Shown here: positions 30,657 to 44,568 of the stretch, in pieces
Layout of the letters: each line of letters opens with the position of its first letter
Position numbering within the stretch: the stretch's first letter is position 1
Assembly: GCA_030531595.1 (NCBI GenBank)
Contig: JAUNND010000008.1
Coordinates: forward strand, 1-50,649
From: Eubacteriales bacterium
Lineage (GTDB): Bacteria > Bacillota > Clostridia > Oscillospirales > Oscillospiraceae
Reading direction: 5' to 3'
Length of the DNA stretch: 50,649 nucleotides
Notes under the pieces: generated by a model
Databases searched by the model: none
The model's input: the letters and a program-made list of their open reading frames with translations, nothing else
Told to the model about the DNA's origin: nothing
Position numbers and translations under genes: made by a program

Positions 30657-30803
30657 ACTCTTTGCACTGCAATCTGATCTACAGTACAAACTGAGCAGGC
30701 AACGGTTTTGACCGTGGAGCCGGGTTACCGAAATGTAACAGCGGAGAGTGTGAAAACACCCTTTGCGGGACAGTGATATGTTCCGCGGAGAGGTGTCTTT
30801 TTT
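30657..30803 (+). ncRNA. Candidate structured non-coding RNA or riboswitch-like leader (~147 nt)
   Basis: Begins just after a perfect promoter and ends in an intrinsic terminator. Elements visible: ACGGT-ttg(t)-ACCGT hairpin at about 30702-30714, GTTAC-CGAAAT-GTAAC hairpin at 30724-30739, GTGT-GAAA-ACAC at 30749-30759, then the terminator: ACACC (30756-30760) with GGTGT (30792-30796) around a 7-bp inner helix (30765-30771 with 30780-30786), and six Ts at 30798-30803. The GTGT/ACAC hairpin and the terminator stem compete for the same bases, as in an attenuator. GGAGCCGGGTTACCGAA recalls the 3' end of the c-di-GMP-I motif, but the GCAAAGC core is absent, so I assign no class. Confidence 0.5.
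30756..30803 (+). terminator. Intrinsic terminator of the structured RNA
   Basis: Outer stem ACACC/GGTGT, inner stem GCGGGAC/GTTCCGC (one G-T pair), then six T residues; 106 bp downstream of the -10 box. Confidence 0.75.
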
Positions 30804-30868
30804 ACCGTTCGGGAGAATTGAAAATGGTTATGTGATGTAGTTTTCGTATCAGACGCCTTTTGAAGCAT

Positions 30869-30899
30869 TAACCGCGCAAAGCGCGGCTCTTAAATGCTG
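30869..30899. repeat. Two-part hairpin upstream of the 143-bp array
   Basis: An AGCATT/AATGCT outer stem encloses a CCGCGC-aaa-GCGCGG inner stem. It lies between the RNA terminator and the left 11-bp inverted repeat and has no T-run, so it is probably a palindromic repeat rather than a terminator. Confidence 0.5.
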
Positions 30900-30905
30900 C
30901 AAAAG

Positions 30906-30916
30906 TTCTGATTAAA
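30906..30916. repeat. Left arm of an 11-bp inverted repeat flanking the array
   Basis: TTCTGATTAAA; its perfect reverse complement TTTAATCAGAA lies at 31356-31366, immediately at the right edge of the third repeat unit. The pair encloses 439 bp containing the tandem array. Confidence 0.7.
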
Positions 30917-30926
30917 AATGTCTTGT

Positions 30927-31355
30927 TTTACTGTGAAAGCTCCGCTTCCGCAGTAAAATTATAATAATCGCCCGTTCCTCGCCCCTGACGGGGCAACCGG
31001 AACGGATGCGAAAAACTCCCATGCGCAGTCAGCTTTCATTTATCGTGGTGCACATTTGGCGCATGGGAGTTTACTGTGAAAGCTCCGCTTCCGCAGTAAA
31101 ATTATAATAATCGCCCGTTCCTCGCCCCTGACGGGGCAACCGGAACGGATGCGAAAAACTCCCATGCGCAGTCAGCTTTCATTTATCGTGGTGCACATTT
31201 GGCGCATGGGAGTTTACTGTGAAAGCTCCGCTTCCGCAGTAAAATTATAATAATCGCCCGTTCCTCGCCCCTGACGGGGCAACCGGAACGGATGCGAAAA
31301 ACTCCCATGCGCAGTCAGCTTTCATTTATCGTGATGCACATTTGGCGCATGGGAG
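30927..31355. repeat. Three tandem 143-bp units, each with three hairpins
   Basis: Units at 30927-31069, 31070-31212 and 31213-31355 repeat exactly every 143 bp. The only difference I see is one G to A in the third unit (GTGGTGCAC becomes GTGATGCAC). Each unit has hairpin 1 (TTTACTG/CAGTAAA), hairpin 2 (CCGTTCC…GCCCC/GGGGC…GGAACGG) and hairpin 3 (14-bp arm AAACTCCCATGCGC and its complement, 31013-31026 with 31059-31072 in unit 1). The 3' arm of hairpin 3 shares its TTT with hairpin 1 of the next unit. No coding frame runs through. The identity implies recent amplification. Confidence 0.92.
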
Positions 31356-31366
31356 TTTAATCAGAA
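31356..31366. repeat. Right arm of the 11-bp inverted repeat flanking the array
   Basis: TTTAATCAGAA, reverse complement of 30906-30916. It directly abuts an ATG at 31367 in the CDF frame, so any insertion here changed the 5' leader of that gene. Confidence 0.7.
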
Positions 31367-31384
31367 ATGAGTATGAGGTGTGTC

Positions 31385-32260
31385 ATGGAAGAGAAGAAGA
31401 TCGTCAGAAAACTTTCACTGATCGGTATAGGCGGTAATATCCTGCTTGTGGCGTTCAAGCTGTATGCGGGAATTGCGGGAAAGTCCGGCGCAATGTTATC
31501 GGACGCCATACATTCTCTGTCGGACGTTTTTGCGACATTAATCGCGTTTCTCGGCGTGCGAATGGCAAATAAGGCTCCGGACAGTGAGCACCCCTACGGT
31601 CATGACCGTTTTGAGTGTCTCGCTTCCCTTACGCTGGGACTGATCCTTGCCGGAACCGGGATTGGGATCGGTGCGAGCGGTATAAGGACAATAGCGGCGG
31701 GCAATTATGCCGCCCTTGAAATTCCGAAAGGAATTGCTCTTGCAGCCGCAGTCGTTTCGATCGTAGTCAAAGAGGGTATGTTCAGATATACAAAATACTA
31801 TGCCGTCAAGCTCAATTCCTCCGCATTTATGGCAGACGCATGGCATCACCGCTCGGACGCACTGTCCTCTGTCGGCTCCTTGGCCGGCATCGGAGGGGCG
31901 ATGCTCGGTTATCCGGTACTTGACAGTGCGGCAAGCGTCATAATATGTATGTGTATTTTGAAGGTCGCGTACGATATTCTGAAGGATGCTCTCAAAAAGC
32001 TGCTTGATACTTCCTGTGATAAGGCGCTTGTTGATGAGCTGAAAGTTTTTATCACGGCACAGGAGGGTGTTGACGCGCTCGACATACTTCACACAAGACA
32101 GTTCGGCGATAAAATATACATAGACGCGGAAATATCCGTTGACGGGAATATGACGCTTCGGGAGGCTCATGCCATCGCTGAGCGTGTCCACGACGCGGTA
32201 GAGCGGAAATATCCGAACACAAAGCATATCATGATCCACGAAAACCCGACAGAAAAATAA
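31385..32260 (+). CDS. Cation diffusion facilitator (CDF) metal transporter (291 aa)
   Basis: Six-helix metal/H+ antiporter exporting a divalent cation. Aligned by eye with FieF, the transport site is H43/D47 in TM2 (HSLSD) and H154/D158 in TM5 (HHRSD). An HxxxD pair in both helices is the arrangement associated with Zn2+-type CDFs rather than the Asp-rich Mn2+ site. The HPYGHDRFE loop and a C-terminal cytoplasmic domain (about 205-291) are standard. The start at 31385 (MEEKK) follows GAGGTG; an ATG at 31367 abuts the flanking repeat. No promoter is obvious between the repeat array and the gene, so expression may come through the array. Confidence 0.9.
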   Translation: MEEKKIVRKLSLIGIGGNILLVAFKLYAGIAGKSGAMLSDAIHSLSDVFATLIAFLGVRMANKAPDSEHPYGHDRFECLASLTLGLILAGTGIGIGASGIRTIAAGNYAALEIPKGIALAAAVVSIVVKEGMFRYTKYYAVKLNSSAFMADAWHHRSDALSSVGSLAGIGGAMLGYPVLDSAASVIICMCILKVAYDILKDALKKLLDTSCDKALVDELKVFITAQEGVDALDILHTRQFGDKIYIDAEISVDGNMTLREAHAIAERVHDAVERKYPNTKHIMIHENPTEK

Positions 32261-43352: not shown

Positions 43353-44420
43353 TTATTTTCCTTTTTCCCTTGCTTGGAGCGACATCAGCACGATCTTTTC
43401 GCACAGCTCGGCATAGCTCATGCCTTCAAGCTTTGCGGCTTTGGGAATAAGGCTGTTTGGGGTCATGCCCGGCAGCGTGTTGACCTCTAAGCAGTATGCT
43501 CTGCCCTCATTGTCAATTATAAAATCAGTGCGTGAGTAAACGGAGAGTCCGAGTGCTCTGTGAAAGCGCACGGCGGCCTCACCGAGCATTTTCTGCTCCG
43601 CGTCGGTTATGCGTGCGGGGCATATCTCCCGTGCGCCCTCATCGCCGCTCTGGTATTTGGCAACGTAATCAAAGCTGTTGCCCTCGGGGGGGACGATCTC
43701 GATGGCGGAGAGATACTTATCGCCCAAGATCGGCTGTGTCATTTCGCGTCCGATTATTTTTTCCTCCACAACAACGCGGTCGGAGTAGAATAATATATCG
43801 TGGAGTGCTTTTTCCAGCTCTTCCTTCGTATCGGGAAGCGCAACACCGATAGATGAGCCGCCGTTGACGGCTTTAACGACACATGGCAGGGAAAGTCTGT
43901 CAGCAAGGGCGGGAATATCGGCTTCACAGTAGGTGATCTCTTCCCATTTGGGGGTCAGTATGCCGGCAGATTCCATGATGCGTTTGGCAACAGCCTTATC
44001 CATGGCCATGGCGCTGCTTAAAGGATCAGAGCCGGTATAGGGGACACCCAAAAGATCGAGAGCGGCCTGAATTTTGCCGTCCTCACCGTCCGCGCCGTGG
44101 AGACCGAGAAAAACGCAGTCAGCAAGCTGACATATTTCAAGTACATTTTTACCGAGACGTGAAGCGCTTTTCAGCTCGCGGGAGGCTTTGACCGCCTCAA
44201 GGTTAGGTGCTTCATGCCCGATGGACACATCTCCGCAGAAGCCGTCGGGAGCGTCAAAGGCATCTTCAAGCTTTCCGTTATATTTTTCAAGCCCGAGGAA
44301 CATATCAACGAATATGGCCTTGTGACCGAGACTTCTCAGCGCCCTGCATACGCTTGTGGCTGTCACAAGAGATACATGGCGTTCGGTGCTTATGCCGCCG
44401 CCTAAAACAACTATCTTCAT
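43353..44420 (-). CDS. ddl: D-alanine-D-alanine ligase family protein (355 aa)
   Basis: ATP-grasp enzyme joining two D-alanines for peptidoglycan precursors. N-terminal VVLGGGISTERHVSL, GLHGADGEDGKIQAALDLLGVPYTGS, the ATP-binding KAVNGGSSIGV, the C-terminal SRTDFIIDNEGRAYCLEVNTLPGMT and SLIPKA blocks are all present. The residue after VEEKIIGREMTQPILG fits the ligase family. The start at 44420 (MKIVVLGGG) is set by the conserved N-terminus. Its RBS (AAAGGA) and ATG lie within one arm of a perfect 21-bp inverted repeat, so the mRNA start region could be hidden in a hairpin. Confidence 0.93.
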   Translation of the reverse strand: MKIVVLGGGISTERHVSLVTATSVCRALRSLGHKAIFVDMFLGLEKYNGKLEDAFDAPDGFCGDVSIGHEAPNLEAVKASRELKSASRLGKNVLEICQLADCVFLGLHGADGEDGKIQAALDLLGVPYTGSDPLSSAMAMDKAVAKRIMESAGILTPKWEEITYCEADIPALADRLSLPCVVKAVNGGSSIGVALPDTKEELEKALHDILFYSDRVVVEEKIIGREMTQPILGDKYLSAIEIVPPEGNSFDYVAKYQSGDEGAREICPARITDAEQKMLGEAAVRFHRALGLSVYSRTDFIIDNEGRAYCLEVNTLPGMTPNSLIPKAAKLEGMSYAELCEKIVLMSLQAREKGK

Positions 44421-44491
44421 TTTTATGACCATTCCTTTCATTATAACTCGAGGCACAATATGACCATGAAAAAGGAATGGTCATAAAAATG
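44418..44491 (-). promoter_or_regulatory. Perfect 21-bp inverted repeat covering the ddl RBS and start codon
   Basis: 44418-44438 and 44471-44491 are exact reverse complements with a 32-bp spacer. In a ddl transcript starting upstream of 44491, the 3' arm holds AAAGGA and the AUG, so both would be paired in a 21-bp helix. A TATAAT lies in the loop on the minus strand (44441-44446); initiation there would give a short leader without the 5' arm. Confidence 0.75.
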
Positions 44492-44544
44492 TGCCATGCT
44501 TTTCGGTTGCCGCGCAAGCGGCGAGAAAAGCGGCTTTTATTATC

Positions 44545-44568
44545 AAGGTTGAAACTTGTTTCAACCTT
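44545..44568. promoter_or_regulatory. 24-bp palindrome, possible operator
   Basis: AAGGTTGAAAC-TT-GTTTCAACCTT: 11-bp perfect arms around 2 bp. The close centre suits a dimeric DNA-binding protein rather than an RNA hairpin. It lies between the divergent ddl and DUF4342 genes. Confidence 0.55.

Follow-up and report, generated by a model that had tools for sequence, protein, structure and literature searches.

Three head-to-tail 143-bp hairpin elements, probably non-autonomous mobile DNA, upstream of a CDF cation efflux gene in a Eubacteriales bacterium

Results

Features of the locus

The window analysed was a stretch of 50,649 bp from a Eubacteriales bacterium, which forms one contig (JAUNND010000008.1) of 121 in a draft assembly. 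A tandem array of units with three hairpins each (H1, H2 and H3) and the dispersed repeat E2 lie downstream of a NiCo riboswitch and ahead of the start codon of a CDF gene. The features of the window are as follows.

30681 to 30775, forward strand: aptamer of a NiCo riboswitch, upstream of the CDF gene (Rfam RF02683, 67.7 bits; gathering score 37)
30837 to 30930, forward strand: left part of the host dispersed repeat E2, collinear with L308, L309, L311 and L312 with some base differences
30927 to 30930, forward strand: TTTA target word at the left junction, recurring at the end of every unit
30931 to 31073, forward strand: unit 1, a 143-bp element (H1 30925-30959 including target bases, H2 core 30968-31011, H3 31013-31072)
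31074 to 31216, forward strand: unit 2, with no base different from unit 1
31217 to 31359, forward strand: unit 3, with one change from unit 1 (31334 G to A)
31360 to 31374, forward strand: right part of host repeat E2, ATCAGAAATGAGTAT, placed by alignment with intact E2 copies
31385 to 32260, forward strand: CDF cation efflux gene (PF01545, E 3.1e-43, and PF16916)
43353 to 44420, reverse strand: D-alanine-D-alanine ligase gene (PF07478, PF01820), preceded by a subfamily-B element
44423 to 44568, reverse strand: subfamily-B member ending 2 nt before the start codon of the ligase gene

The CDF start at 31385 was picked by eye from a Shine-Dalgarno-like AGGTG word, and the longest frame starts at 31367. 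An earlier note on this DNA had set the array directly in front of a CDF gene; the gene was confirmed by its PF01545 match, but the NiCo riboswitch upstream of the array had been missed. At E 1e-40, 17 of 45 genomes, one of them the own genome, had a relative of the CDF protein, and eight of the 16 other CDF loci had a NiCo aptamer at the Rfam gathering score. The element model had no match at these 16 loci at E 0.01 (best 0.017), and the core pattern was absent from the 13 CDF upstream regions that could be placed by script. As the protein relatives are only 43-64% identical, the 16 loci do not amount to near-identical empty sites. At another locus, L086, an FMN riboswitch directly follows an A-type element, which makes a second case in the family beside a riboswitch leader.

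Structure of the array

Positions 30931-31359 comprised exactly 3 x 143 bp in head-to-tail order, and Tandem Repeats Finder gave a period of 143 with 3.0 copies and 99% matches at 30927-31359. The description of three near-identical units differing in one base was borne out by the exact 143-bp cut, in which position 31334 alone was changed, and the copy number of three rests on one draft assembly.

The fold of unit 1 with its flanks (30906-31080) showed three hairpins and an MFE of -69.2 kcal/mol, where shuffled sequences averaged -43.6 kcal/mol (z -6.1) and none of 200 did as well, in keeping with the three hairpins per unit of the earlier note. The limits of H1, H2 and H3 in unit 1 were taken from the fold of 30921-31073. 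The sequence of H1 was TTTTACTGtGAAAGCtccGCTTcCGCAGTAAAA. H2 had three stems: one of 4 bp, followed by a 2-nt AT bulge on the 3' side, one of 7 bp, followed by a TC/AACC internal loop, and a GC stem of 5 bp; in its core form it reads CTCGCC-stem-GGCAACCG with the AT bulge on the 3' side. H3 had a 14-bp stem and a long loop. The word TTTA stood before unit 1 and at the end of each unit, and H3 and the next H1, which the earlier note had described as competing, overlapped by this TTTA.

Copies of the unit and covariation

The unit was counted in its own genome and in relatives, as the earlier note had proposed. Fifteen matches, spread over about 14 places, were found in the own genome, and the identity of some of these copies was 99-100%; at the DNA level the unit matched 14 of 60 genomes (own included), all from one genus. 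A covariance model (R1) was built from 23 copies and had matches in 22 of the 41 genomes of the genus, again with the own genome included. The number of R1 matches was 33 in genome G062, 20 in G035, 19 in G022 and 26 in the own genome, the last figure taking in the window units and two antisense matches on them.

In the 23-copy alignment, 95.8% of the cells were paired and 18 of the 36 pairs had two-sided changes. Neither the pairing nor the covariation value was reached by any of 500 shuffles, and the pairing fell to 33-48% when the partners were slid by 1-3 columns. Inspection of alignment A1 by eye showed that the 3' end was TTTA in 18 of 23 copies and that the word before H1 was TTTA in 8 of 23, leaving five A-type copies of the 23 without a TTTA end.

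The 143-bp element occurs as dispersed copies, as MITEs do, and is taken to be non-autonomous because 143 bp leaves no room for a transposase gene. In the strict sense, the label MITE did not hold, as there was no end-to-end terminal inverted repeat (the hairpins are three and consecutive); no target duplication was seen beyond the shared TTTA. The integron-like alternative in the earlier note is a suggestion for which no positive sign came up.

Another subfamily-A copy in the genome (G000:C91:3428-3722), by eye, was split within its H3 loop by a palindromic element that has AATGTCATT-like ends and a duplicated flank and contains GTAG-type REP hairpins.

Host repeat E2 and empty sites

The 11-bp inverted repeat TTCTGATTAAA / TTTAATCAGAA was perfect and was located at 30906-30916 and 31356-31366. 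The earlier note had placed both arms outside the array; the perfect match stood, but the right arm overlaps the last TTTA of unit 3. The further suggestion that the arms enclose and bound the element was overturned, since they are the palindrome of the second repeat, E2, interrupted after TTTTA. The 11-bp repeat was thus ruled out as the ends of the element.

The left part of E2 consisted of a hairpin (30858-30904) and the left arm of the TTCTGATTAAA palindrome and ended in TTTTA; 30837 is the start of the compared stretch, not necessarily the outer left limit of E2. The 15-base word CTGATTAAAAATGTC was present at eight places in the own genome at no more than one mismatch and at six more with two. 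Four of those eight (L308, L309, L311 and L312) aligned with the window over about 94 bases left of the insertion point and ran on into ATCAG uninterrupted, while the window had 429 extra bases between TTTTA and ATCAG. These four intact copies without the insert, found in the same genome by the empty-site comparison that had been called for, place the array inside E2 and make the 11-bp repeat the E2 palindrome. The empty copies (GTCTATTTTTA) and the window (GTCTTGTTTTA) had the same length, with two base changes adjoining the junction. E2 itself (30837-31374 in the window) was recorded as a second dispersed repeat of at least about 110 bp with two hairpins and several genomic copies.

The insertion lies 3' of a fixed tetra- or pentanucleotide (TTTTA^ATCAG, one site against four empty copies). 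No E2 bases were missing, and no target duplication was found beyond TTTA. The TTTA on both sides of the array is also the element's own 3' end, and the empty site has one TTTA; in several diverged copies the left and right flanking words differed. Three further subfamily-A copies (L063, L069 and L071) also had ATCAG directly 3', so the E2 palindrome looks like a repeated landing place for subfamily A, to judge from these flanks.

Tandem arrays at other loci

Arrays were also found at L189 (three units), L190 (two) and L385 (two). On the reverse strand of L141 (2273-2461) there were three tandem 81-bp units with the H2 core and a different companion hairpin. Regularly spaced cores were present in G194 (three units, 174 bp each), G407 (three units, 122 bp each), G205, G165 and G335.

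These arrays, together with the dispersed copies, bear on the reading that no mobile element is involved and that the units arose by simple tandem duplication of a hairpin present locally, or are an artefact of assembly. The assembly is a draft of 121 contigs, some of which begin or end inside a unit (C29 and C101), as an artefact would allow; near-identical copies at unrelated loci and the empty sites speak against it, and since several arrays in other genomes have diverged units, an artefact is unlikely as their general cause. This reading is therefore regarded as very improbable. The same near-identical copies at unrelated places and the empty sites agree with the earlier proposal of a recently amplified, non-autonomous structured mobile element.

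Core hairpin H2 across the order

H2 was the constant part of the element family and turned up, flanked by other outer hairpins, in several taxonomic families of the order. The exact pattern CTCGCCN{5,9}GGCAACCG matched 103 of 394 genomes of the order (64 of 169 genera), while the reversed pattern, used as a chance control, matched about 40 of 394 by hand count, and many listed single matches were without a pairing stem. The structure is for these reasons the stronger sign of the spread of H2, and loci of other families (f3 and f18) had the core with a changed but paired stem, plus outer hairpins. A longer exact pattern had matches in named genomes as well, in 44 stretches that bear labels such as Oscillospiraceae, Flavonifractor, Oscillibacter, Clostridiales and others. 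Three-hairpin copies also occurred in records without a MAG label (Flavonifractor, Pseudoflavonifractor and Oscillibacter), so cultured relatives may exist for tests.

Base pairing and orientation to genes

Transcribed RNA normally tolerates G-U pairs on one strand. The 87 distinct cores, picked by a filter that treated G-U and A-C alike, had 750 Watson-Crick, 5 G-U, 11 A-C and 17 other cells, and alignment A1 had 23 G-U and 18 A-C with no strand asymmetry. As G-U pairs were nearly absent where RNA would tolerate them, these counts speak for pairing maintained at the DNA level, which transposition or hairpin-templated correction might bring about.

Orientation was assessed for 158 core matches in 139 of 195 loci, of which eight matches lay within called genes; genes were called by a codon-scored script that replaced a cruder frame finder. 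After arrays were merged, 138 matches remained, with 56 in co-directional sense and 21 antisense (p 8e-5). With shared flanks also removed, 127 remained (54 sense and 20 antisense, p 1e-4), and 31 gaps were divergent against 12 convergent. Subfamily A alone, shared flanks removed, gave 11 sense and 7 antisense. The sense bias upstream of genes is not required of a pure DNA parasite and counts against the mobile-element explanation in its simplest form. A dual role may apply, in which mobile DNA survives best, or lands, in leaders.

Subfamilies B and C at expression signals

Three subfamilies (A, B and C) were separated by eye and by script. Subfamily B has an H1 of the form AAGGTTGAAAC... and an H3 ending in GGTCATAA. 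A model from 10 B copies had matches in 43 of 150 genomes of the taxonomic family (41 of 106 genera), the weaker of which include other subfamilies. The text pattern found 30 B copies among the examined loci, two without downstream sequence, and missed at least seven further copies. A start codon with an open frame of at least 50 codons followed the B end within 0-4 nt in 25 of 28 copies, against 9.3% of random positions at the same loci, and the distance was exactly 2 nt in 23 of the 28 assessable copies. The exceptions were L352, L357 and L287, and in L287, by eye, an ATG takes in the final base of the element. Within 16 nt upstream of B, 28 of 30 copies had one of eleven Shine-Dalgarno-like words (random positions 25%), and 21 of 30 had one of the five strongest (14% random). 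The B copy in the window (44423-44568) sits between the Shine-Dalgarno-like word and the ATG of the ligase gene. The fixed distance of 2 nt from B to the start codon exceeds what a 3-base word alone explains; either targeting or selection may have produced it.

In subfamily C, H1 begins on a -10-like word. A -35-like word was found 16-18 nt upstream, in the flanking DNA, for 25 of 34 first or solo C copies against 79 of 722 control windows (11%), and for 0 of 5 inner units of C arrays. Some of the 34 copies depend on one another, L214 and L237 having a flank in common, and two of the 34 have an A-like H1.

The sense bias and the position of B, which ends 2 nt before the start codon, would both suit a cis-regulatory RNA family that is multi-copy by chance, with H2 binding a ligand or protein and H3 opening or closing the ribosome-binding site. 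In B, the right arm of H3 contains the word AAAGGA, which pairs with the left arm; by eye, a different hairpin, ATGACCAT/ATGGTCAT with GGCAC/GTGCC, could also be drawn. A described Rfam riboswitch or sRNA was ruled out, as neither the window stretch nor any of 15 loci gave an Rfam match on the element. The RNA reading is further weakened by downstream genes that look unrelated (CDF and ligase by Pfam, others by eye), by the near absence of G-U pairs, by the occurrence of subfamily A in both orientations, and by the -10 box inside H1 of subfamily C, from which an RNA would begin within H1. On this evidence, a regulatory RNA family is considered unlikely.

Neighbouring genes and search for a mobiliser

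The frames neighbouring the element were clustered for 139 loci, and no transposase was recognised by eye among the 25 largest clusters. The clearest cluster (L074, L076, L089 and L091) was one host locus, by eye a transporter operon, at which four genomes have an A-type element. The own-genome copy there (L074), by eye, occupies nearly the same position as those at L089 and L091 but points the other way. Matches to Rfam SpF59_sRNA were found in L074, L076 and L089, the scan having covered these three of the four loci. No match was found in viral contigs by exact pattern, or in plasmids and phages by blastn.

The Y1 transposase domain PF01797 was found in 6 of 16 genomes, which are mostly drafts: it was not found in six of the eight high-copy genomes, and four of the eight genomes with no element match had it. 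The own genome and G022 were among the carriers. The H2 core or H3 arm text was not found at the two own Y1 loci or at the G022 Y1 locus. One own Y1 gene lay at a contig edge and the other was RAYT-like, beside GTAG-type REPs. The product of this second gene (L149, G000:C58) is a 163-aa RAYT-like Y1 transposase; the gene has GTAGGGCGGGGGCTCGCTCCCGCC hairpins on its flanks and is apparently part of a REP/RAYT pair. The IS110-type domain PF02371 was present in 5 of 18 genomes and in 3 of 10 high-copy ones. Both Y1 and IS110-type candidates for the mobiliser were weakened by this patchy presence among high-copy genomes.

Non-autonomous derivatives of IS200/IS605 insert 3' of a fixed short word without duplication and have hairpins and strand polarity. 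The array resembles them in these respects, and a derivative of this type, moved as single-stranded DNA by a Y1 transposase with TTTA as target and guides in H1 and H3, would fit the insertion site 3' of a short word, the lack of a new duplication, the 3' end that is usually the same word, the hairpins and the Y1 genes of the own genome. Such an origin is nevertheless judged quite unlikely, because the conserved hairpin here is central, not terminal, and no consistent Y1 transposase was found with it: six of the eight high-copy genomes had no Y1 gene found, the core and arm text was absent from the three Y1 loci, and the two own genes stand at a contig edge and beside different repeats.

The reverse transcriptase domain PF00078 (RVT_1) was found in 5 of 18 genomes, comprising 5 of the 10 high-copy genomes (G000, G022, G507, G491, G457, G479, G062, G035, G456 and G111) and 0 of the 8 others (Fisher p 0.036). 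Because PF00078 was found only in high-copy genomes, an RNA step in mobility might be involved; this is a weak hint, as five high-copy drafts show no PF00078.

Discussion

Small interspersed repeats are common in bacteria. The array in the window is probably made up of three head-to-tail, non-autonomous mobile elements of 143 bp (subfamily A), each with the core hairpin H2 between the long outer hairpins H1 and H3, which would be mobilised in trans. Comparison with the intact copies of E2 showed that the unit was inserted in this repeat immediately 3' of TTTTA. The unit's own TTTA end would recreate the target word on the 3' side, and for this reason arrays may form at the same point: later copies would have entered at the recreated word, or slippage would have duplicated the TTTA-flanked unit, and either course would leave shared junctions. 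A putative trans-acting enzyme may recognise the folded DNA, with H2 as the recognition core, and the arms of H1 and H3 beside H2 could pair with the target word. The idea of guide arms stems from the complementarity of the arms to the end word, which is TTTA in subfamily A and TATAATA in subfamily C. Subfamilies with TATAATA-like ends (-10 boxes) and the subfamily at the Shine-Dalgarno word and start codon would fit the same plan at other sites.

Among described repeats, BOX elements of S. pneumoniae and S. suis are small, interspersed, structured, modular and non-autonomous, have a middle module in multiple copies and can adjoin leaders, and they have terminal inverted repeats and target duplications, according to the excerpted text of PMC3049150, which also treats the pneumococcal RUP and SPRITE repeats. 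The likeness, drawn from organisation alone and from those excerpts, lies in small size, structure, non-autonomy, multiplied parts and position near leaders. Set against the same excerpts, whole units sharing a junction word are multiplied here, the conserved core is common to several families of the order and the outer hairpins are specific to each subfamily, and subfamilies lie at -10 boxes or between Shine-Dalgarno word and start codon, whereas terminal inverted repeats and target duplications were not found.

Correia elements and bacterial MITEs, as outlined in the portion of PMC10969869 compared, are short, non-autonomous and upstream of genes and can carry promoter parts, and the present element is similar in being short, non-autonomous and upstream of genes, with promoter parts possible. 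As far as that portion goes, it differs in that its ends do not pair across the element, its conserved core hairpin is internal, and no duplication of the target was seen past the TTTA of its own end. REP/RAYT systems, in the passages of PMC2817692 compared, are dispersed extragenic hairpins in many copies with a GTAG-type word 5'. The element shares the dispersed extragenic hairpins in many copies; unlike the repeats of those passages, it has no GTAG-type word 5' of the hairpin, and the RAYT-like gene of the genome lies among different, GTAG-type hairpins.

No description of this gut-bacterial family was found among the matches listed in the full-text literature, judged by title or start of abstract; subscription papers are mostly outside such a search, and the result is not proof of absence. 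The element is read as a form of small interspersed mobile repeat not previously described.

A wider reading is put forward tentatively. The copies may belong to a mobile family of 110-150 bp across the order, with one conserved DNA hairpin and outer hairpins acting as exchangeable guides that select the target word. Its subfamilies would be specialised to the extended -10 box, the gap between Shine-Dalgarno word and start codon, and terminator-like T tracts, serving as removable or multipliable spacers moved by an undescribed enzyme. If true, a core hairpin kept across several families while its branches hold exact distances to promoters and start codons would be unusual, and the family would give a natural system in which to study the way mobile DNA locates expression signals and the way leaders cope with inserted hairpins or put them to use.
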